This document shows positions 8,400 through 43,524 of a stretch of 64,000 nt of DNA, piece after piece. This DNA is from Acetobacter orleanensis (GTDB lineage Bacteria > Pseudomonadota > Alphaproteobacteria > Acetobacterales > Acetobacteraceae), in assembly GCF_001581005.1 (NCBI RefSeq), contig NZ_LHZV01000065.1, positions 1-64,000 of the forward strand, read 5' to 3'. The notes beneath the pieces were generated by a model. The model was not told the DNA's origin. It saw only the letters and a program-made list of their open reading frames with translations, and made no database searches. The first letter of the stretch is position 1. Every line of letters starts with the position of its first letter. The translations under genes were made by a program, and so were the position numbers.

Positions 8400-10322
8400 T
8401 TATTGGAACGGCAAATATCGGAAGGTGACGTAAACCGTGTTGCCCGATGTTGTCGGGTAGACACTGTTGTCGTGACCGTCATTGCCTCTGAAGGCAAACT
8501 TCCGGATATAGGTATATTGCAGGCCGCCCATCACGCTGCCGTAGCGGCCTTCAACAAAGTGCCACCAGCCACCGGCGGTCAGGGAGGCCAGCGTGCGGGT
8601 CTGGGCGTTACAACTGCCGAATTCCACGTCGCATCCGCCCAGATTAAGGTCATTCACCCCGTAGCCATACTGGGCGCCATCAGCCCCCATGTAGCGCTTG
8701 CGTCCGGCTGTCTCGATACCCCCGTAGGTGTAGAGCAGCACGGACTGGGAGGGGTGGCCGATAAGGCCGAGTGAGCCCATCAGTTCCGGCACGGGGGAAA
8801 GCACCCCGCGGGCATTGGGTGTTGTGTCGGGAATCAGGCTCGGCCCGTAGCGGCCAATGCCTTCCCCTGCCAGAATATTGCCTGCCATCTGGAGTTTTTT
8901 GGTCCCCAGCGGTGTTGTCATGCCCGCGCCAACGCCGCCACCAAACGTCGTGTGCTTTTTGGTAGTGGTCATGCCCGGTTCTACGGCAAGGGAGCGGAAC
9001 CAGCGCGCCATGCCGAACACTTCATAATGCCCGAAGGACGTATCCACCGCCCCTTTCAGGATAACGTCTGGTGCGGGGTTGTAGGTGTATTGCGCACCCG
9101 GATTCAGCAACACACCGCCGCTGTTGGAATAATAAATGCGTGCGCCTGTTTTTTCTCCGTACGCCGCAGGCAGGGTGCTGCCGGAAGAGAGCGGGGAAGA
9201 AAAAGCGACGGTTGCCTGTGGGTCTTCCACTGAGAGGCCAAGCCAGTATTTTTCGTGCCAATCTTTCCCGATGCGAATTTGCGGCACACGGGTAAAGGTC
9301 ACACCCGGAATCTGGTTGTTATCCGTAACCGCAGGGAGTTGTTCCTGCCGTGGGAGCAGACCTTTGGCGTAATTGGTGGACAGGCTCCATGCCTGCCCCA
9401 TCAGGATATGGAGCCCCCAGTCTTTCTGGGTGAAGGTAAAATACCCCTGCCGCATGCGCGGTGTGTAACCGCTAATCTGCACACTGTTACTGGTGCCGGC
9501 AGCGCCAGCAAAATCGCTTTCCACATAAGCTTGCAACCGCACGGCTTTGGAAGGGTTAGCCTCCATCAGCACAGACATCCGGCTGAGCTGGGCGGACATA
9601 CGCTCCTCGCTCAATCCATGATTGGGGCTGTTGGCGTAAGGGAAGTTGTTCCATGCCGTGGCGGGGCCGCTGGTCATATTGGAACTGCGCCAGATGTTGG
9701 AGAACTCTACAAAACCACCAAGCTTTACGGAAATGCCGCCGATGCTGAAAATCGGGGGCAGGCGATCCACATCTGTCTGGGTGATGGAAGAGGGGCTGGA
9801 GGAACTGAGGTCAATGCTTGACCGGGCAGAGCCGTTCTGCGGCTGCTGTGGCATCCAGCGGAACCCGGCAAAGCCTGACCCGCTATTAACAGGCGCGTGC
9901 TGAGTAGGACCGACCTCAACAGGCTGCGCACCACCGGAGAAGAGAATACCGGGGTCCGCTGGGCCATTTGTTTGCAAGCCGTAAGGTGCCTCTGGATAGG
10001 TATTCTGTGCGCTTGCCGTTGAATGGTTGCCTGTGGCGGCCAATTTTGTGGCATTAGGAACATGGGATGCGGCACCAGACCGCGCCGCCGCAACCTGATG
10101 TCCCTTTTGCGGGTGTTTTAATGCCTGCCGGTGTTCAATTGCCTCTACCTGCGCGGCCAGTTTACGCATCTGTTCTTTAATGGCGGCGAGTTCCTGTGCA
10201 TCATCCGCATGCGCCAGCGAGGGGTCGCTCAGAACACAGGCAAGCGCAGTACCAAGCAGAAGCCGGGTATCCCTCTTTCTGGTGTCGCTAGAACCCCGGG
10301 GCACAGGCGGTTTCACACTCAA
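8400..10322 (-). CDS. Outer-membrane porin (DcaP-like)
   Basis: A 640-residue exported protein. The basic N-terminus and hydrophobic stretch at about 20-38 end at AHADD, a good signal-peptidase site. A short coiled coil (about 43-66) follows, then a low-complexity linker. From about residue 190 an aromatic, glycine-rich beta-barrel pattern runs to the C-terminus, which ends in a VTFRYLPFQ strand. The coiled coil plus barrel layout, and segments such as [10 protein letters not shown] and [21 protein letters not shown], resemble DcaP-type porins that admit small acids. The substrate is not known from sequence. It is followed within 41 bases by pdc, so it probably leads an operon of porin, decarboxylase and MFS carrier. 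Confidence 0.75.
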
Positions 10323-33433: not shown

Positions 33434-36153
<2,720 letters not shown>

Positions 36154-36223
36154 CCTGCTATTCTGGTAAAAAATAAAAAAATTAGTGTCTGAAGTGTGAG
36201 TATTTTGAATACGCTTCAGAGTG

Positions 36224-36257
36224 AAAAAGCGCCACTCCCGTAAGAGTGGCGCTTTTT
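36224..36257. terminator. Bidirectional terminator between asdA and the Hint protein gene
   Basis: Perfect 14-base arms (36224-36237 and 36244-36257) around a six-base loop, with A and T runs at the ends, between two convergent genes. Confidence 0.9.
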
Positions 36258-36264
36258 TAGTGGC

Positions 36265-39200
36265 TTAAGCGGAGAGTGCCATTGCCTGAGCTGTCAGTTC
36301 AGGCTCAACGCGATAAGCTTCAGCTGCATGTACTGTAATGATCAGCATACCCATTTTACTCTGTGTCTGTGCAGACAGCGGCAGCAAGGCATTGCCGTCG
36401 GTCCAGACAGGAGCGTTCTGACTGTTGCTTTCATACCAGCCATCCTGCGCGGCAGTTAGATGAGTCGTGATCCGACGCTGAACCGTGCTGCCAATGAAGC
36501 GGATTGTGCTGACAGATACGCCCAGAGCGCGGCGATCATCCACAAACGGTCCAATCACGTCGCTAGGACGGCTGGTGCGTGACACGATCCTGACAGCGTC
36601 TACGCCAGCCGGAAGCATGAAGCTATAAGCCCCATTGTCGTAACGGATCGGCCGAATGACAGCACCATTGCTCATGATGAGGTGTAGGTTTGCTTCCCGC
36701 GTCATTACTGGAACGCTGGTAGGCATCTGGCATCCTTCGACAACGCTTTCACGAGCTTCCAGAGCGTGGAACAAGGGTTCAACCACATTACGGGCCACGC
36801 ATAGCGGCGCTGCGGCATCTTCTTCCCAGTTGCGTGTGCCGATAGCACGCAGTGCTGCAACAGCGCCTTCCTGACGGAAGGAGGAACGGTTCCCCGTATC
36901 AAGATAGCTTTCAGTCAGCATGCCATCCGCAGTGATGACGGAATGCTCTTCTGTTTCTACGTGGTAATAATCGTAAGACGTAATGCTTGTATCGTAGAAA
37001 ATGGATCGACCATTGACCAGCATACGCACAGGAACAAAGCGTTCTTCAAAGAAGAGGCAATGTTCAGGCGTAATCAGCATATCTTTGTAAGGAACGCCGT
37101 CTGAAATGGCATTTTTGAGCACTCGTACAGGATAACCGGCCTCGTCTACCGGAACGCTAGAGCGTGCGGTAGTGTGTGCTTTGGCGACCCAGACGACGGA
37201 TCTGGTGACTTCGCGATTATTCTTCCAGTCAAATACTGAAATCTGTGTGCCTAGAGAGATATTTTCAATCGCGACATCGCCGTTGGGTGTACGGATCATG
37301 CTGCCGGACAGGAAGCAGGCTGTAAAATTACCATCTTCAATCAGCCAACCATGGTTGGATGGGTCTTCCACAATCTTGGTTGTGGAGGGCACGTATCCTG
37401 CCGCTGGCGTAATGCTGCCGTAGGTTACTGTCTGGCCGTTCGTAAGTTTGACGGTGAGCGTATAGGAGGTATCGTCTGAGTTTGGCGTGTAAACCGCAGA
37501 AACAGGTTTTGCAGTCAGGTTTGCAATGCCGAATATGGTGTTTTGAGAAACACCGTTCAGCACAACATTGCCCGCATTTGCTTTATCGCCAGAATCATTA
37601 ATATAGACGGTGTTCACCGTTGTGGGGTCAACGTTAATGGTGACGGCGCTTGAGTAGCTGATCCCGGGCTGAGCAAACAGCGTGCTGTTCTTTGCCATAT
37701 TGATCGTGCCGCCCTGTACCCAGACAGGCTTATCCACGGTTCCAAGTGAGGCGTTGATCAGATTCAAAGTGCCACCGTTGTTCAGGGCACCGTTATCCAG
37801 GGTTACATTCCCCTGATTGTTCATGATGGTAATCGTGCCACTCTCACGATTCATCGTGACGCCACCCAGTTCAACATTGGATGGAGTGTCAATAATGATG
37901 CTGCCGCTATTTTCAAAACCAGCGGTGGCAAACACGTTGCCGACGTAGCCGGAGCCCGCCTGTGCGGTAATTTTCAGAACACCGCTTTGCCAAATGCTCA
38001 GGCTGCGGATCTGGTTATAATCGGCGACATTATCAACAACAATGCTCGGTGCAGCTGTGCTGTCCATGACACCGATATTGACGTCCGCATTCTGCTGGGA
38101 TTGCGGGATGGGGTTGTCAGTCCAGTAATCCGTATTGGACGTGTCAACAACGTGCCCATTGCTATCAAGAAGTGTCCAGTTTTTGAAATCGTTCCAGTCG
38201 CTGGAGTTCGCACCCGTCCACTGCCAGCTCATATCGTGTTGATGGAAGCTTTCAGGTGTACTGATATACTGGGATGTATCACCGCCAGCATTGGTTGCGT
38301 TTGTTGCAACCGCTGTCATCTGCTGATGGAGAGAGTTGTCGGTGTAATGACCGCCTGTTCCACCAATAGATGAGGTGTCTTCAATATCCCAGCCAGATGT
38401 AGCGCTATCCTGAACAATGGTAAGCTTCGCGGGAGGCGTATAGCCTTCTGCCATATGGAGAGCATTATATGTCAGATTACTGCCATTAGCCATCGTGATT
38501 TGAAGGGTATAAGACCCATCTTGATTGGCTGTATATGTAGCAGACGTTGGGGCCGTGTTTAGTCCAGCAATACCAAAACGAGTGTTTTCTGAAACACCAT
38601 TGATAACGGCTGTCTGATTATTTGTGCCGTCGATCCCTGTGTTCAGGAAGCCATTATCCTGCATGTAAATTGTATTAACTGTTGCAGGATCAACGTTGAG
38701 AGTGGCTCCGTAACCGGAGTTCAGGAAAATACTACTATTGTTTTGGAGGTTGACCGTCCCACTGACCCAGACTGGCTGGCCTGCATTGCCAAGAGATGCG
38801 TTAATCAGATTAACAGTGCCACTGCTGTTCAGGTTACCATCATCAAAAATCACATTTCCATGATTGTTCATGATCGTGATTGTGCCGTTGTCACGATTCA
38901 TAGTGACACCGCCAAAATCTACACGAGACGGCGTATCCACAATAATTGTGCCATCGTTTTCAAAACCTGCAACGGCAAAAACATTGCCGTGGGTTCCGTT
39001 GGATCCCTGAGCGGTAATTTTGAGTGTACCGCTTTGCCAGACGCTCAGGCTACGGAACTGGTTATAAATAGGCGCATTGGCAACAATCGTAACGGGTGAT
39101 GTCGAATTCCCGCTGGCCCCTACGTTAACGTCAGCATTCTGCTGTGACTGCGGAATTGCCGGTGACCCAGTTGTCGATGTGTCTACAACATGACCGGCAC

Positions 39201-39387
39201 TATCAAAAAGCGCCCAGTTTTCTGAATTGCTCCAATCCCCGGTTGGACCGCCTACCCAACGCCATGACATGTCATGATGATGGTAGCTTGTCTCACCATT
39301 TTGATACTGGTCAACACTACCGCCTACGGAGACTGAATTGTTTTCGATTTGTTGAAAGTCAACAGATGAAATTGGTGTCTCGCCCAT
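36265..39387 (-). CDS. Hint-domain protein with two large beta-rich repeats
   Basis: A 1040-residue protein without a classical signal peptide. Two homologous units of about 330 residues (about 38-335 and 385-685) each start with a His-rich DMSWRW/DMSWQW stretch, include an IPQSQQNADVN segment, a long Asn/Gly/Thr-rich beta-helix-like part (GTITIMNN), and end with GWDIED or GWLIED. A Hint (Hedgehog/intein) domain begins with the reactive cysteine in TACFLSGSMIRTPNGDVAIENISLG and includes ITPEHCLFF. A beta-rich tail ends the protein. In acetic acid bacteria such Hint proteins are thought to be surface or secreted and possibly self-processing. AGGAAA lies ahead of the ATG. Its upstream region is the invertible-segment candidate discussed below. 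Confidence 0.8.
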   Translation of the reverse strand: MGETPISSVDFQQIENNSVSVGGSVDQYQNGETSYHHHDMSWRWVGGPTGDWSNSENWALFDSAGHVVDTSTTGSPAIPQSQQNADVNVGASGNSTSPVTIVANAPIYNQFRSLSVWQSGTLKITAQGSNGTHGNVFAVAGFENDGTIIVDTPSRVDFGGVTMNRDNGTITIMNNHGNVIFDDGNLNSSGTVNLINASLGNAGQPVWVSGTVNLQNNSSIFLNSGYGATLNVDPATVNTIYMQDNGFLNTGIDGTNNQTAVINGVSENTRFGIAGLNTAPTSATYTANQDGSYTLQITMANGSNLTYNALHMAEGYTPPAKLTIVQDSATSGWDIEDTSSIGGTGGHYTDNSLHQQMTAVATNATNAGGDTSQYISTPESFHQHDMSWQWTGANSSDWNDFKNWTLLDSNGHVVDTSNTDYWTDNPIPQSQQNADVNIGVMDSTAAPSIVVDNVADYNQIRSLSIWQSGVLKITAQAGSGYVGNVFATAGFENSGSIIIDTPSNVELGGVTMNRESGTITIMNNQGNVTLDNGALNNGGTLNLINASLGTVDKPVWVQGGTINMAKNSTLFAQPGISYSSAVTINVDPTTVNTVYINDSGDKANAGNVVLNGVSQNTIFGIANLTAKPVSAVYTPNSDDTSYTLTVKLTNGQTVTYGSITPAAGYVPSTTKIVEDPSNHGWLIEDGNFTACFLSGSMIRTPNGDVAIENISLGTQISVFDWKNNREVTRSVVWVAKAHTTARSSVPVDEAGYPVRVLKNAISDGVPYKDMLITPEHCLFFEERFVPVRMLVNGRSIFYDTSITSYDYYHVETEEHSVITADGMLTESYLDTGNRSSFRQEGAVAALRAIGTRNWEEDAAAPLCVARNVVEPLFHALEARESVVEGCQMPTSVPVMTREANLHLIMSNGAVIRPIRYDNGAYSFMLPAGVDAVRIVSRTSRPSDVIGPFVDDRRALGVSVSTIRFIGSTVQRRITTHLTAAQDGWYESNSQNAPVWTDGNALLPLSAQTQSKMGMLIITVHAAEAYRVEPELTAQAMALSA

Positions 39388-39395
39388 CTCATATT

Positions 39396-39537
39396 TCCTA
39401 ATTTATGCAAATGGGCATTAATTAATATTCTAAATATGGATTTATGTTTTTCTTGAACTAACAATTCTTATCAGATATTAATTTTATCGTTTTTTTAACA
39501 ATAAAAACACGATGCGTTGTGTTTGCATAAATCAGGA
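39396..39537. repeat. Segment bounded by 17-bp inverted repeats between the Hint gene and the recombinase
   Basis: The left copy (39396-39412, TCCTAATTTATGCAAAT) matches the reverse complement of the right copy (39521-39537) at 15 of 17 positions. The 142-bp unit lies wholly between divergent genes and holds a promoter-like pair on the forward strand (TTGAAC at 39453 and TATTAA at 39476, 17 bases apart). Each repeat carries an AGGA facing outward; on the left it is the Hint gene's ribosome site. Possible roles are recombination sites of the neighbouring recombinase or operator pairs for a regulator. Confidence 0.6.
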
Positions 39538-39595
39538 TTAAAATTAATACGAATCTAAATTATGAAACATTTTCGGGCATGTTGAGGGCGGTAAC

Positions 39596-40168
39596 ATTCT
39601 TAAAAAAATCGGATATGCACGGGTGAGCACCATAGGGCAAACCCTTGATACACAAATGAAAATCTTAGAAACACACGGCTGTGAAAAAATCTTCTGTGAA
39701 AAAGTCAGCGGTGCTGACGCACAGCGTGAGCAGCTTCGAAAAATGGTTAGAAGTCTGAAAAAAGACGATGTTGTGATCGTTGCAAGGATTGATCGTCTTG
39801 CAAGAAGCACATTTGATTTATTCTCTATCGTTCAAAATATTACGAAAAAAGGTGCTCATTTTTATTCTTTATCCGAGCCTTGGGTTGATACGAATACCAG
39901 TACCGGCCGTCTGATGCTCGCTGTTTTAGCTGGTCTCGCAGATGTTGAACGCGATCTCATTCGGACACGTACAGCAGAAGGTCGGGCCAGAGCGATTGAG
40001 CTAGGTAAACGTATGGGTCGTCCGTCTAAGATGACGCAGCTGGAAAAACAAGAGATTGTCCGGCGCCGGTTGGGGGGGGACTCTTTGAGAGTGCTGGCTC
40101 AAGATTTTGGAATCAGCGTTTCAACTGTTTCCAGACTGACACTTGAGAGGACCCGTTTTTCTGTCTAA
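39596..40168 (+). CDS. Serine recombinase (resolvase/invertase family), start codon apparently ATT
   Basis: A 190-residue site-specific recombinase of the Tn3-resolvase/DNA-invertase type. The catalytic motif IGYARVSTIGQ contains the nucleophile serine. VVIVARIDRLARSTFDL, GRLMLAVLAGLADVERDLIRTRTAEGR and a C-terminal HTH (LGGDSLRVLAQDFGISVSTVSRL) complete it. From the upstream stop at 39563 to 39623 the frame has no ATG, GTG or TTG. The family N-terminus (LKKIGYAR) is encoded but preceded by ATT at 39596, with GAGGG about seven to ten bases before it. A GTG at 39623 would lose the first strand and most of the catalytic motif. It is AT-richer than its neighbours and borders AT-rich spacers on both sides, suggesting transfer. 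Confidence 0.82.
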   Translation: MLKKIGYARVSTIGQTLDTQMKILETHGCEKIFCEKVSGADAQREQLRKMVRSLKKDDVVIVARIDRLARSTFDLFSIVQNITKKGAHFYSLSEPWVDTNTSTGRLMLAVLAGLADVERDLIRTRTAEGRARAIELGKRMGRPSKMTQLEKQEIVRRRLGGDSLRVLAQDFGISVSTVSRLTLERTRFSV

Positions 40169-40706
40169 AAATTAGATACTAATTTTCCTGCATTGAAATA
40201 GGAATGTATTCATAATTAATTATGCAATGTTTAAGTGTATTTAATAACAAAATATATTTTCTTAAAGAATATGAAAATTTTTCTTATTTAAAGATATTTT
40301 CTATATCTAATTGTTTCAAAAATAATATGATAAATATTATCAAACATATTAACCTTAACGCAGTATTATTTTTAAAACAAAAATAGATGTTTAAGAATAA
40401 TTTATAGACAAAATAAAACGTGATTCGGACTCCTGATCGACTCATTAGGGGGCATGCCTTTGCAGCAGTCGATAGGCGATATTTTTCGGCAAGAAACCAG
40501 TGAAGGAGAGAATATGCATCGTGTATGCGAATGATCTCTCTGTTGAGTCATAACGCCTTCAGTCTTTCACGGATCCTTAACCACTATAAAAATCGTATGA
40601 TAAAAAATTAATCATAAAAACAATAGTATTTTATATTGCCTCATTGACGACGTAATTTATCCTCGATATCACAAAGGCTAAATACACTAAATATGGTCGT
40701 TATATT
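40169..40706. other. AT-rich gap upstream of the siderophore receptor
   Basis: No gene is supported. It holds a near-perfect Fur-like box (40328-40342), a second weaker repeat at 40597-40615, and presumably the receptor promoter. The base composition of the first 250 bases is very AT-rich, unlike the rest of the window. Confidence 0.5.
40328..40342 (+). promoter_or_regulatory. Fur-like box
   Basis: TGATAAATATTATCA matches the 7-1-7 Fur box (TGATAATnATTATCA) at 13 of 14 fixed positions. It lies 365 bases before the siderophore receptor start, further than usual, so a long leader or an unseen small gene is implied. Confidence 0.55.
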
Positions 40707-42917
40707 ATGATTTCACCAAGAGGATTTGTTTTAATCGGAACTGTTCTCACCTCTTGCGGGATGAGTACGGCTATTGTGCATGCACAGGGAGCGACCGGTA
40801 AGGTGCTGCCGGAACTGCGCAAAACAGAAAAGAAAAGGGCTCCTGCCAGTTCTCTTCTTCCTTCCGGAAAGCTTCAGCGCAGACAGGCAGAACATGGGAA
40901 ACCGCAACTCGCTGAACGAGAAGAACTGGAAGTGCATGGGAGTGCCACGCCCGCGTTCTCCGGCGGCGCGCTCGGAAGAAAAAGGCCTTTGGATACGCCT
41001 TTTTCCATTCGTACTGTTACGAGCGCGGAGATACAGGAACGTCAGGTGAAATCCTTGTCCAGATTACTATCTCAAGACGCATCAGTTGTCACCAATGGGG
41101 ACACTTATTCCTTTAACGCGTATAGCGTAACGGTGCGTGGTGTGCCGCTGGATGATTACAATGGTTACAAAATTAACGGCTCTCCGTTTTATATGACAAC
41201 GGTTGAACTGCCTCTGGAAAGCTTTGAAAATGTTCAGCTTCTCAAGGGTGCGTCAGGCTATATGTATGGCTTTAACGCTCCGGGTGGGATCATCAATTAT
41301 CAGACCAAGAAGCCAACGGAGCAAAGAAGCTTTGAGGTCGATGCGGGTTATAGCTCAGCCGCTATTGCCAGCGAGCATATTGATACGGGCGGTAGGTTGT
41401 TTAACAAGGTTTTTGGATATCGTTTAAATTTAACGCATGAAAAGGGCGAGACCTATAATGGCTCACATGTAGAACGGTATTCCGGTTCTCTGGGGGTGGA
41501 TGCGCGCATAACCGAAAATCTGCTCTGGACAGCGGACGCTATCTATCAAAACAGAAAAATACGTGGTCTGGTTCAGGATTTTTTTATTGATCCCACAACC
41601 TATCCTTCAAACAGTCTGCCGGATGCTATCAGCGGGCATAAGGACCTAAACTCCTATCCCGGTTCCATGTTCACGTCGCACGTCCTGTTTCTGACGACAG
41701 GTTTGAAATGGGATATTAGCAGAAGCTGGAAATTCCACGTAGATTACAGCCATAGTCAGGATTGGCGCTCTTATCAGAGTGAATGGATGTCGCTTAAGGG
41801 CAGGGAAGGAAATTATGACTCCTACCTGTCAACAGACCCACGGAGTTGGTCAGACTATAATCAGGCACAGGGTATTCTGGAGGGCTGTTTTCATACAGGG
41901 TTTGTAAAACATGATGTAACACTCGGAGCAACATGGCAGGGGTTAGAAAAATATCTTCCCACTCGCACCGAATATGTGAATATTGGTTCGCAAAACATGT
42001 ATGCACCGATCATCTCCCGGCCATGGAGTATTGATAATGAGTCGCCTGTTTACCGGAATTACCGGTCAGATCAGGTTGGCCTTTTCCTGAGTGACACGGT
42101 TACATTTACACCACAATGGTCGCTTCTGGCCGGGGTGCGTTATACCAATTTCCGGCAAAACAGCTACAGCGCAGAGGATGTTAGGACGGCGACGTATAAG
42201 GTTAATCCCGTAACCCCGACGGTTGCCTTGCTGTATCACCCGGTGCGAAACATGACTGTTTATGCCAGTTATGTGCAGGCACTCGAAAATGGCGGCACAG
42301 TGGGCAATACCTACAAAAATGCCCGCCAGACGCTGCCACCCATCCGGTCTGATCAGGTGGAAGTGGGGGCTAAAATTTCACGTCGAACATGGGATCTGAC
42401 GGGGGCGTTGTATCGCATCACGCGCGGTGCGCAATATGCAAATACCGATAATTACTATGTTTCTAATGGAATGCAGGTTTATCAGGGATTTGAATTGAAT
42501 GGCCATGTAGACCTTCCCTTTGGCTTTGTGGTGACTGACAGCTTGGGGATCGAGGCATCAAACTATAAAAAGACGGACCCATCCATCCAAGGCCACACAG
42601 CAGAAGCCATTCCAACGTTCCAGAATATGTTTACACTCACAAATAATATTCAGGCGGTACCGGGACTGTCTGCTTCAGCAGAAGTACATTATACCGGCAG
42701 AATGTGGGGGGATGCTATGAATGTTTATCACATTCCCGGTTATACTCTGCTCAACTTGCGGGCCAGCTATCGCACGCATATCGGAAAACATCGCATAACC
42801 TTCAGGGCAGAGTTGGATAACGTTGCCAACGCGCACTACTGGGGCGTTTTGGCTTCCGATTACTTTTACGTTGGAGCGCCGCGGTCAGTCTATCTCAATG
42901 CTCGATTTGATTTATAG
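40707..42917 (+). CDS. TonB-dependent siderophore receptor
   Basis: A 736-residue outer-membrane receptor. Signal peptide to about residue 26 (IVHAQ). A basic linker follows, then the plug with KRPLDTPFSIRTVTSAEIQERQ, VTVRGVPLDDYNGYKING and FENVQLLKGASGYMYGFNAPGGIINYQTKKP, the ferrisiderophore pattern. The barrel closes with PRSVYLNARFDL. The family brings ferric siderophores into the periplasm using TonB energy. A Fur-like box upstream and the adjacent iron genes (dps, bfd) support iron regulation. The siderophore itself is not identifiable. Confidence 0.93.
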   Translation: MISPRGFVLIGTVLTSCGMSTAIVHAQGATGKVLPELRKTEKKRAPASSLLPSGKLQRRQAEHGKPQLAEREELEVHGSATPAFSGGALGRKRPLDTPFSIRTVTSAEIQERQVKSLSRLLSQDASVVTNGDTYSFNAYSVTVRGVPLDDYNGYKINGSPFYMTTVELPLESFENVQLLKGASGYMYGFNAPGGIINYQTKKPTEQRSFEVDAGYSSAAIASEHIDTGGRLFNKVFGYRLNLTHEKGETYNGSHVERYSGSLGVDARITENLLWTADAIYQNRKIRGLVQDFFIDPTTYPSNSLPDAISGHKDLNSYPGSMFTSHVLFLTTGLKWDISRSWKFHVDYSHSQDWRSYQSEWMSLKGREGNYDSYLSTDPRSWSDYNQAQGILEGCFHTGFVKHDVTLGATWQGLEKYLPTRTEYVNIGSQNMYAPIISRPWSIDNESPVYRNYRSDQVGLFLSDTVTFTPQWSLLAGVRYTNFRQNSYSAEDVRTATYKVNPVTPTVALLYHPVRNMTVYASYVQALENGGTVGNTYKNARQTLPPIRSDQVEVGAKISRRTWDLTGALYRITRGAQYANTDNYYVSNGMQVYQGFELNGHVDLPFGFVVTDSLGIEASNYKKTDPSIQGHTAEAIPTFQNMFTLTNNIQAVPGLSASAEVHYTGRMWGDAMNVYHIPGYTLLNLRASYRTHIGKHRITFRAELDNVANAHYWGVLASDYFYVGAPRSVYLNARFDL

Positions 42918-42942
42918 AAAAACCAACCAAACGTAAGTGCTG

Positions 42943-42980
42943 GGAGTGTCTTCCCGTGGAAGCGGGAAGACACTCCTCTT
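42943..42980. terminator. Bidirectional terminator between the siderophore receptor and dps
   Basis: Perfect 14-base arms (42943-42956 and 42963-42976) around a six-base loop, followed by TCTTTT on the forward strand, between convergent genes. Confidence 0.88.
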
Positions 42981-42984
42981 TTAG

Positions 42985-43524
42985 TTAGTCGTTCTTCCCA
43001 AACGCTGGGCGGGTGGCTTCAAACAGGAACCATGTGCGGCGTTCCGTCTCATCAATCCAGTTTTCCAGCAGGCTGGCGGTTGCGACATCATTCGCGTCGT
43101 CGCAGACAGCATGCACTTTACGCATCCGGGTGGTCAGCGCCAGATTGTCCTCTCGCAGTTCAGCAAGCATGTCTTCCGGCGTCACATACAGTGCGTCATT
43201 ATCAGAAACCTGCGTGCGGCGGGCGATTTCTCCAATGGAATGGAGCGTTGTACCGCCAATCTTGCGGGCGCGCTCGGCCATCGGGTCCGTCATGGCAAAA
43301 ATCTGTGCGCTTTGCTCATCCAGTAGCAGATGATAATCGCGGAAGTGGCGACCGCTCATATGCCAGTGGAAATTTTTTGTTTTCACATACAATGCAAACA
43401 CGTCAGCCAGCGTATCAGCAAGACCTACCGCAACTTCTTTAACGGCATCGGCCTTCAGGTCAGTCGGTGTGCCCAGATATTCGCGGACATGGGCTTCTTT
43501 GGCTGTCGGAGTAGTTTTCGTCAT
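42985..43524 (-). CDS. dps: Dps-family DNA-binding ferritin-like protein
   Basis: A 179-residue protein that stores iron with peroxide as oxidant and coats DNA in stress. The ferroxidase ligands of the Dps fold are seen in TKNFHWHMSGRHFRDYHLLLDEQ (His and Asp) and in the DPMAERARKIGG that follows. The C-terminal helix NWIDETERRTWFLFEATRP is typical. A Lys/Thr-rich N-terminal tail may bind DNA. It is convergent with the siderophore receptor and shares its terminator. No obvious OxyR site was seen. Confidence 0.93.
   Translation of the reverse strand: MTKTTPTAKEAHVREYLGTPTDLKADAVKEVAVGLADTLADVFALYVKTKNFHWHMSGRHFRDYHLLLDEQSAQIFAMTDPMAERARKIGGTTLHSIGEIARRTQVSDNDALYVTPEDMLAELREDNLALTTRMRKVHAVCDDANDVATASLLENWIDETERRTWFLFEATRPAFGKND

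Follow-up and report, generated by a model that had tools for sequence, protein, structure and literature searches.

In the 64,000-nucleotide stretch of Acetobacter orleanensis DNA analysed here (the window), a 142-bp segment at 39396-39537 separates the divergent starts of a serine recombinase gene (REC) and a gene encoding a Hint-domain protein. With a probability that we place at roughly 0.85, this segment is a site-specifically invertible promoter, flipped by the adjacent REC so as to serve either the Hint gene or REC, and recurrent in Acetobacter and Gluconobacter. REC, which is encoded just outside the segment, would recombine the two inverted arms, and the flipped promoter would then read either the divergent, adhesin-like Hint gene (ON) or REC itself (Hint OFF). 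A phase switch of this type between the two genes had been proposed by a sequence-only reading of the same DNA, and it gains support from the conserved arms and from the inverted segments found in relatives; the action of REC as the catalyst, the activity of the motif as a promoter, the change in Hint output and clonal switching within a culture are its predicted components.

Layout of the proposed switch and its recurrence

The segment is delimited by a left recombination arm, TTTGCATAAATTAGGA when read outward (39396-39411, minus strand), and a right arm, TTTGCATAAATCAGGA (39522-39537, plus strand), both defined from the sequence and by arm comparison. They pair at 15/16 complementary positions and enclose an invertible spacer of 110 bp (39412-39521) to which no strand is assigned, with predicted crossover dinucleotides at 39406-39407 in the left arm and 39526-39527 in the right one. 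Taken alone, the window repeat is barely above chance: for the best 18-nt arm pair in the 250 bp (15/18), an equally good pair turned up in 8 of 200 shuffled sequences (first-order Markov). That it is not a chance repeat follows from the recurrence of the arms, of the length (mostly 140-143 bp) and of the 74-81 bp distance to REC in dozens of loci.

Several elements of this layout had been described by the sequence-only reading. The 142-bp segment and its bounding inverted repeats are borne out, as is their position between a 1040-residue Hint protein and a serine recombinase, confirmed by the open reading frames and by matches to PF13403 and PF00239. An AGGA does face outward in each arm. Within the left arm (39396-39399, minus strand), at a place where AGGA or AAGA is conserved among arms, it probably acts as the ribosome-binding site of the Hint gene, being a plausible Shine-Dalgarno sequence at a distance of 8 nt from the start codon ATG; its counterpart in the right arm is not the ribosome site of REC, whose usual start is found about 40 nt farther downstream. 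The promoter-like pair is also present (TTGAAC-17-TATTAA, 39453-39481, plus strand, with the two elements at 39453-39458 and 39476-39481), as part of a motif common to the segments, TGTTTTTGTTGCACTAACAATT...GTAGTAATC (TTGnnn-17-TAgtAa), and found at a conserved place within them.

In the window this motif spans 39445-39483 on the plus strand and now faces REC. As generic sigma-70 scoring was uninformative, the matrix not separating the two directions in the AT-rich segment, the motif was learned from the segments themselves and scored leave-one-out. The window motif scores 29.2 toward REC versus 4.1 toward Hint, against a 99% value of 9.2 for shuffled sequences; the promoter faces REC, and the Hint gene is therefore predicted to be off. 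By the same scoring, which is weak for segments of the L121/L126 type and disagrees there with the alignment-based orientation, more segments face REC than Hint. This excess is not predicted by a simple self-silencing switch, and regulation of REC or a bias from growth conditions could lie behind it.

Beyond the window, comparison of loci demonstrates a conserved architecture. TTTGCRYAAATCARGA arms are common to about 37 distinct arm pairs from Acetobacter and Gluconobacter, with a flip length of 140-143 bp in 35 of the 37, and across loci the right arm stands 74-81 bp before the tyrosine of the GYARVS motif. The two arms of a locus covary, with 515 left/right identities as against 449 +/- 7 when partners are reshuffled (475 at most in 5000 reshuffles), and the predicted crossover dinucleotide differs between the two arms in 8/37 pairs. 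A divergent Hint gene lies beside REC in nearly every relative locus with enough contig; the repeats are conserved where the recombinase is present, arms having been found wherever a Hint-linked recombinase occurs in Acetobacter, and Gluconobacter oxydans 621H shows the Hint pairing with arms too. The window genome itself has four REC-Hint pairs, three of them formed by close paralogs of the window REC, which share about 63% identity, are located on contigs C2, C18 and C23 and are all paired with a divergent Hint gene. Of the 11 arm matches in this genome, 9 belong to five Hint loci. No arms are present at five Hint genes without REC.

Individual copies depart from this design. On contig C5 of the window genome, a switch that has lost its recombinase (L086, 8223-8363) has its promoter motif toward Hint and is probably frozen on unless REC acts in trans. 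The REC of L061 (7744-8361) reads ARVRT where others read ARVST, so the catalytic serine is apparently replaced and the copy is probably inactive. In L118 (G018) the right arm seemingly runs in the sense opposite to the usual one, and in L133 (G034) a truncated recombinase is fused to segment-like sequence. Many switch copies are carried on plasmids near parA and rep; on the small plasmids L145, L147, L148 and L150, a second serine recombinase, perhaps the plasmid's own resolvase, is located between the Hint-linked REC and parA.

Orientation among relatives and the state of the window copy

Alignment in both directions places homologous segments in opposite orientation among loci. Between the plasmids of A. 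oryzoeni B6 (L126) and A. pomorum SH (L151), 3.7 kb align forward at 98.0%, 145 bp reversed at 98.6% and 1.9 kb forward again at 95.6%, and in the orientation comparison the flanks were scored as identical over the first 500 bp toward REC and over 400 bp toward Hint. The inner arm bases move with the segment while the outer flanks stay, which places the crossover inside the arm. L145/L146 versus L147 represent a second inverted case, and in the window genome the C2 unit (L078) has the orientation opposite to that of L063, L124, L125 and L061, the RECs of L063 and L078 being sisters in the tree. For the window locus, a Hint ortholog was recognised by synteny in another species (G010; 74.9% over 3.2 kb). 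Its REC is gone, and its segment aligns with that of the window in the opposite orientation (score 74 versus 27, shuffle maximum 52), with the promoter toward Hint in G010 and toward REC in the window. Among intact relatives, the two closest to the window copy (L048 and L049) share the orientation of the window. A comparison of orientation in related strains, which had been suggested as a check, has thus returned inverted segments between matching flanks (L126/L151 and L145/L147) and the opposite state in the G010 ortholog, both orientations at one locus, as in an inverton, being found in every case between strains or species.

The recombinase of the window (39602-40168, plus strand) is of the small resolvase/invertase type (PF00239, E 1.6e-39). 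Its catalytic domain has the GYARVS motif of the serine recombinases, and its C-terminal HTH gives weak matches that fall below the cut-off. The nearest solved structures are Gin and gamma-delta resolvase, with a Gin-type DNA-invertase as the best match, and the nearest named loci carrying this recombinase are two A. malorum loci. Its frame is open from 39566 and REC starts at an A7 tract, and no ATG, GTG or TTG stands in frame ahead of the catalytic domain, while nearly all other units have one. In the leader (39538-39601, plus strand), the ATG at 39579 is out of the REC frame, lying 35 nt before the Tyr codon with the A7 tract in between, whereas many relatives have an ATG at 33 nt; the offset could reflect a genuine frameshift, slippage or a mistake in the assembly. 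As REC has none of these three start codons in frame, the window copy may be stuck, or it may be served by other RECs.

It is a serious though tentative possibility that the window switch is a frozen relic, with REC translationally broken, the promoter stuck toward REC and Hint silent, while its relatives are live; this concerns the state of the window copy only and is compatible with a phase switch in the family. The missing in-frame ATG, GTG or TTG and the 35-nt spacing across the A7 tract point in this direction, and other frozen copies are known, namely those without REC on C5 and in G010. Against it, the length of the A7 tract could be variable or subject to slippage, or could have been wrongly assembled in this draft genome, ATT could serve as the REC start, the three other RECs of the genome could act in trans, and the window arms and crossover dinucleotide are intact.

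Probable exchange between switches

The favoured reading includes recombination between the arms of different switches, by which the intervening DNA is inverted or deleted and Hint genes are re-paired with recombinases. A. oryzifermentans SLV-7 carries two switches about 14 kb apart on a plasmid, and comparison with a plasmid of A. pasteurianus NBRC 101655 demonstrates the inversion of the 14-kb block, with both breakpoints inside the two switches, so that each REC now faces the other Hint gene. In G035, a REC-segment-REC junction is as expected of a deletion between arms, and in A. oryzoeni two RECs are joined through fused arms without a segment. In 386B the exchange takes in Hint coding sequence as well and may be due to homologous recombination.

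In L050 (G009, around 8943-8982), where the left arm and the segment are missing, Hint coding sequence and right arm are fused at ...GGAATTCAGGA, possibly by recombination at a cryptic site. A TonB-receptor gene precedes the Hint unit in L048, L050 and L051, while the Hint-REC unit precedes the TonB gene in the window (36113-42985); judging by gene order, the unit has moved across its TonB neighbour.

The block inversion and the deletions between switches, together with the retention of REC and segment while Hint genes are exchanged, could also be taken to mean that inversion is real but mainly rearranges DNA between switches, the 142-bp flip affecting expression little. We consider this improbable, as the promoter motif is conserved at a conserved segment position, a small unit of constant size with a ribosome-site sequence pointing outward from its arm suits a local promoter switch, and otherwise matching units differ mainly in orientation.

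REC homologues in other Acetobacteraceae genera are mostly without Hint and left arm; what these Hint-less homologues retain is one half-site resembling the right arm (AAWTCAAGA), with the Tyr codon about 92 bp further on. In the tree the switch RECs are separated from these homologues with modest support, and an origin of the switch by recruitment of a resolvase would fit. That the arms are static binding sites for REC, serving autorepression or, in a res-like manner, the resolution of plasmid multimers with nothing inverted, is very hard to sustain, since this resolvase-like half-site and the plasmid copies near parA and rep are outweighed by segments inverted between matching flanks (for example, L126 versus L151), by the inversion of the 14-kb block, whose breakpoints fall within two switches, and by a near-constant inverted pair of 140-143 bp that covaries within loci. 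Resolvase self-regulation, offered as an alternative by the sequence-only reading, was rejected because it fails to explain the inverted segments and the block inversion. A Tn3-type resolvase with a three-part res site acts on direct repeats and by deletion only; here, an inverted pair and inversions were found.

The Hint targets and related systems

The gene that the invertible promoter would control (36265-39387, minus strand) encodes a protein of 1040 aa in which two N-terminal beta-rich repeats are followed by a C-terminal Hint_2 domain (PF13403, E 1.5e-29) with conserved catalytic residues C691, T773 and H776. The gene contains an internal duplication (37753-38251 versus 38800-39290, about 69% identical).

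The nature of the target is best illustrated by the C18 unit of the window genome, in which a TibC/Aah heptosyltransferase gene (E 8.5e-186) lies between REC and the Hint gene, and the Hint protein encoded downstream of it consists of an AIDA-like strand-loop-strand passenger and a C-terminal Hint domain. This unit supports a surface adhesin as the Hint target. Its pairing of heptosyltransferase and passenger is that of the heptosylated adhesins AIDA-I and TibA, from which it differs by the C-terminal Hint domain; an autotransporter barrel was not reported in the searches. The combination of a passenger and a dedicated heptosyltransferase is found in the C18 unit alone, the passenger of the window protein having matched no family, adhesin families included, in the family search. 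The AlphaFold model of the window protein has a mean pLDDT of 59, and Foldseek returned weak matches to adhesin-like wall proteins and intein-like domains, none with E <0.001, so that the modelled resemblance to adhesin-like wall proteins is suggestive. Given a passenger without family match and a low-confidence model, we only infer that the window protein is a surface protein.

Invertible promoters with a dedicated recombinase are already known as a kind, and the comparisons support the extension of the single locus first noticed to a recurrent switch family. In the mrpI-mrpA switch for the MR/P fimbriae of Proteus mirabilis, recombinase and adhesin genes are separated by an invertible promoter element of 252 bp that is flanked by inverted repeats (PMC9820224). 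The Acetobacter switches share this arrangement and the single dedicated recombinase, and differ in using a serine recombinase and a unit of 142 bp, in having a Hint-domain protein as target and in recurring at many loci that exchange with one another. MrpI resembles FimB and FimE, which are tyrosine recombinases. With Hin and Gin, REC shares membership of the small serine recombinase family and inversion between short inverted sites; the gene of Hin lies inside a segment of about 1 kb and a Fis enhancer is used, whereas REC lies outside the 142-bp segment. The Bacteroides Mpi, one master enzyme, is likewise a serine recombinase that flips promoters of surface loci. Against the Mpi model, REC gives a match (E 1e-18) that stays below the cut-off (67.7 versus 272 bits), and every Acetobacter switch comes with a recombinase of its own next to it, which faces the same promoter. 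No report of invertible promoters in Acetobacter was found in literature searches, and a genome-wide survey detected no inversions in its four Alphaproteobacteria (PMC5903667).

From dozens of copies with a common design, it follows that Acetobacter, a genus of vinegar makers and Drosophila gut residents, probably switches surface proteins on and off, and gives them new recombinase partners, through the cutting and inversion of DNA. A broader proposal, to which we would give even odds, is that the genus holds an adhesin repertoire in the form of parallel switches, in each of which one promoter makes either an adhesin or the recombinase that moves it, while compatible arms re-pair genes and flip blocks. 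A single promoter choosing between recombinase and target would constitute a compact and directly testable circuit, and exchange between switches would offer a route for shuffling surface proteins among loci.
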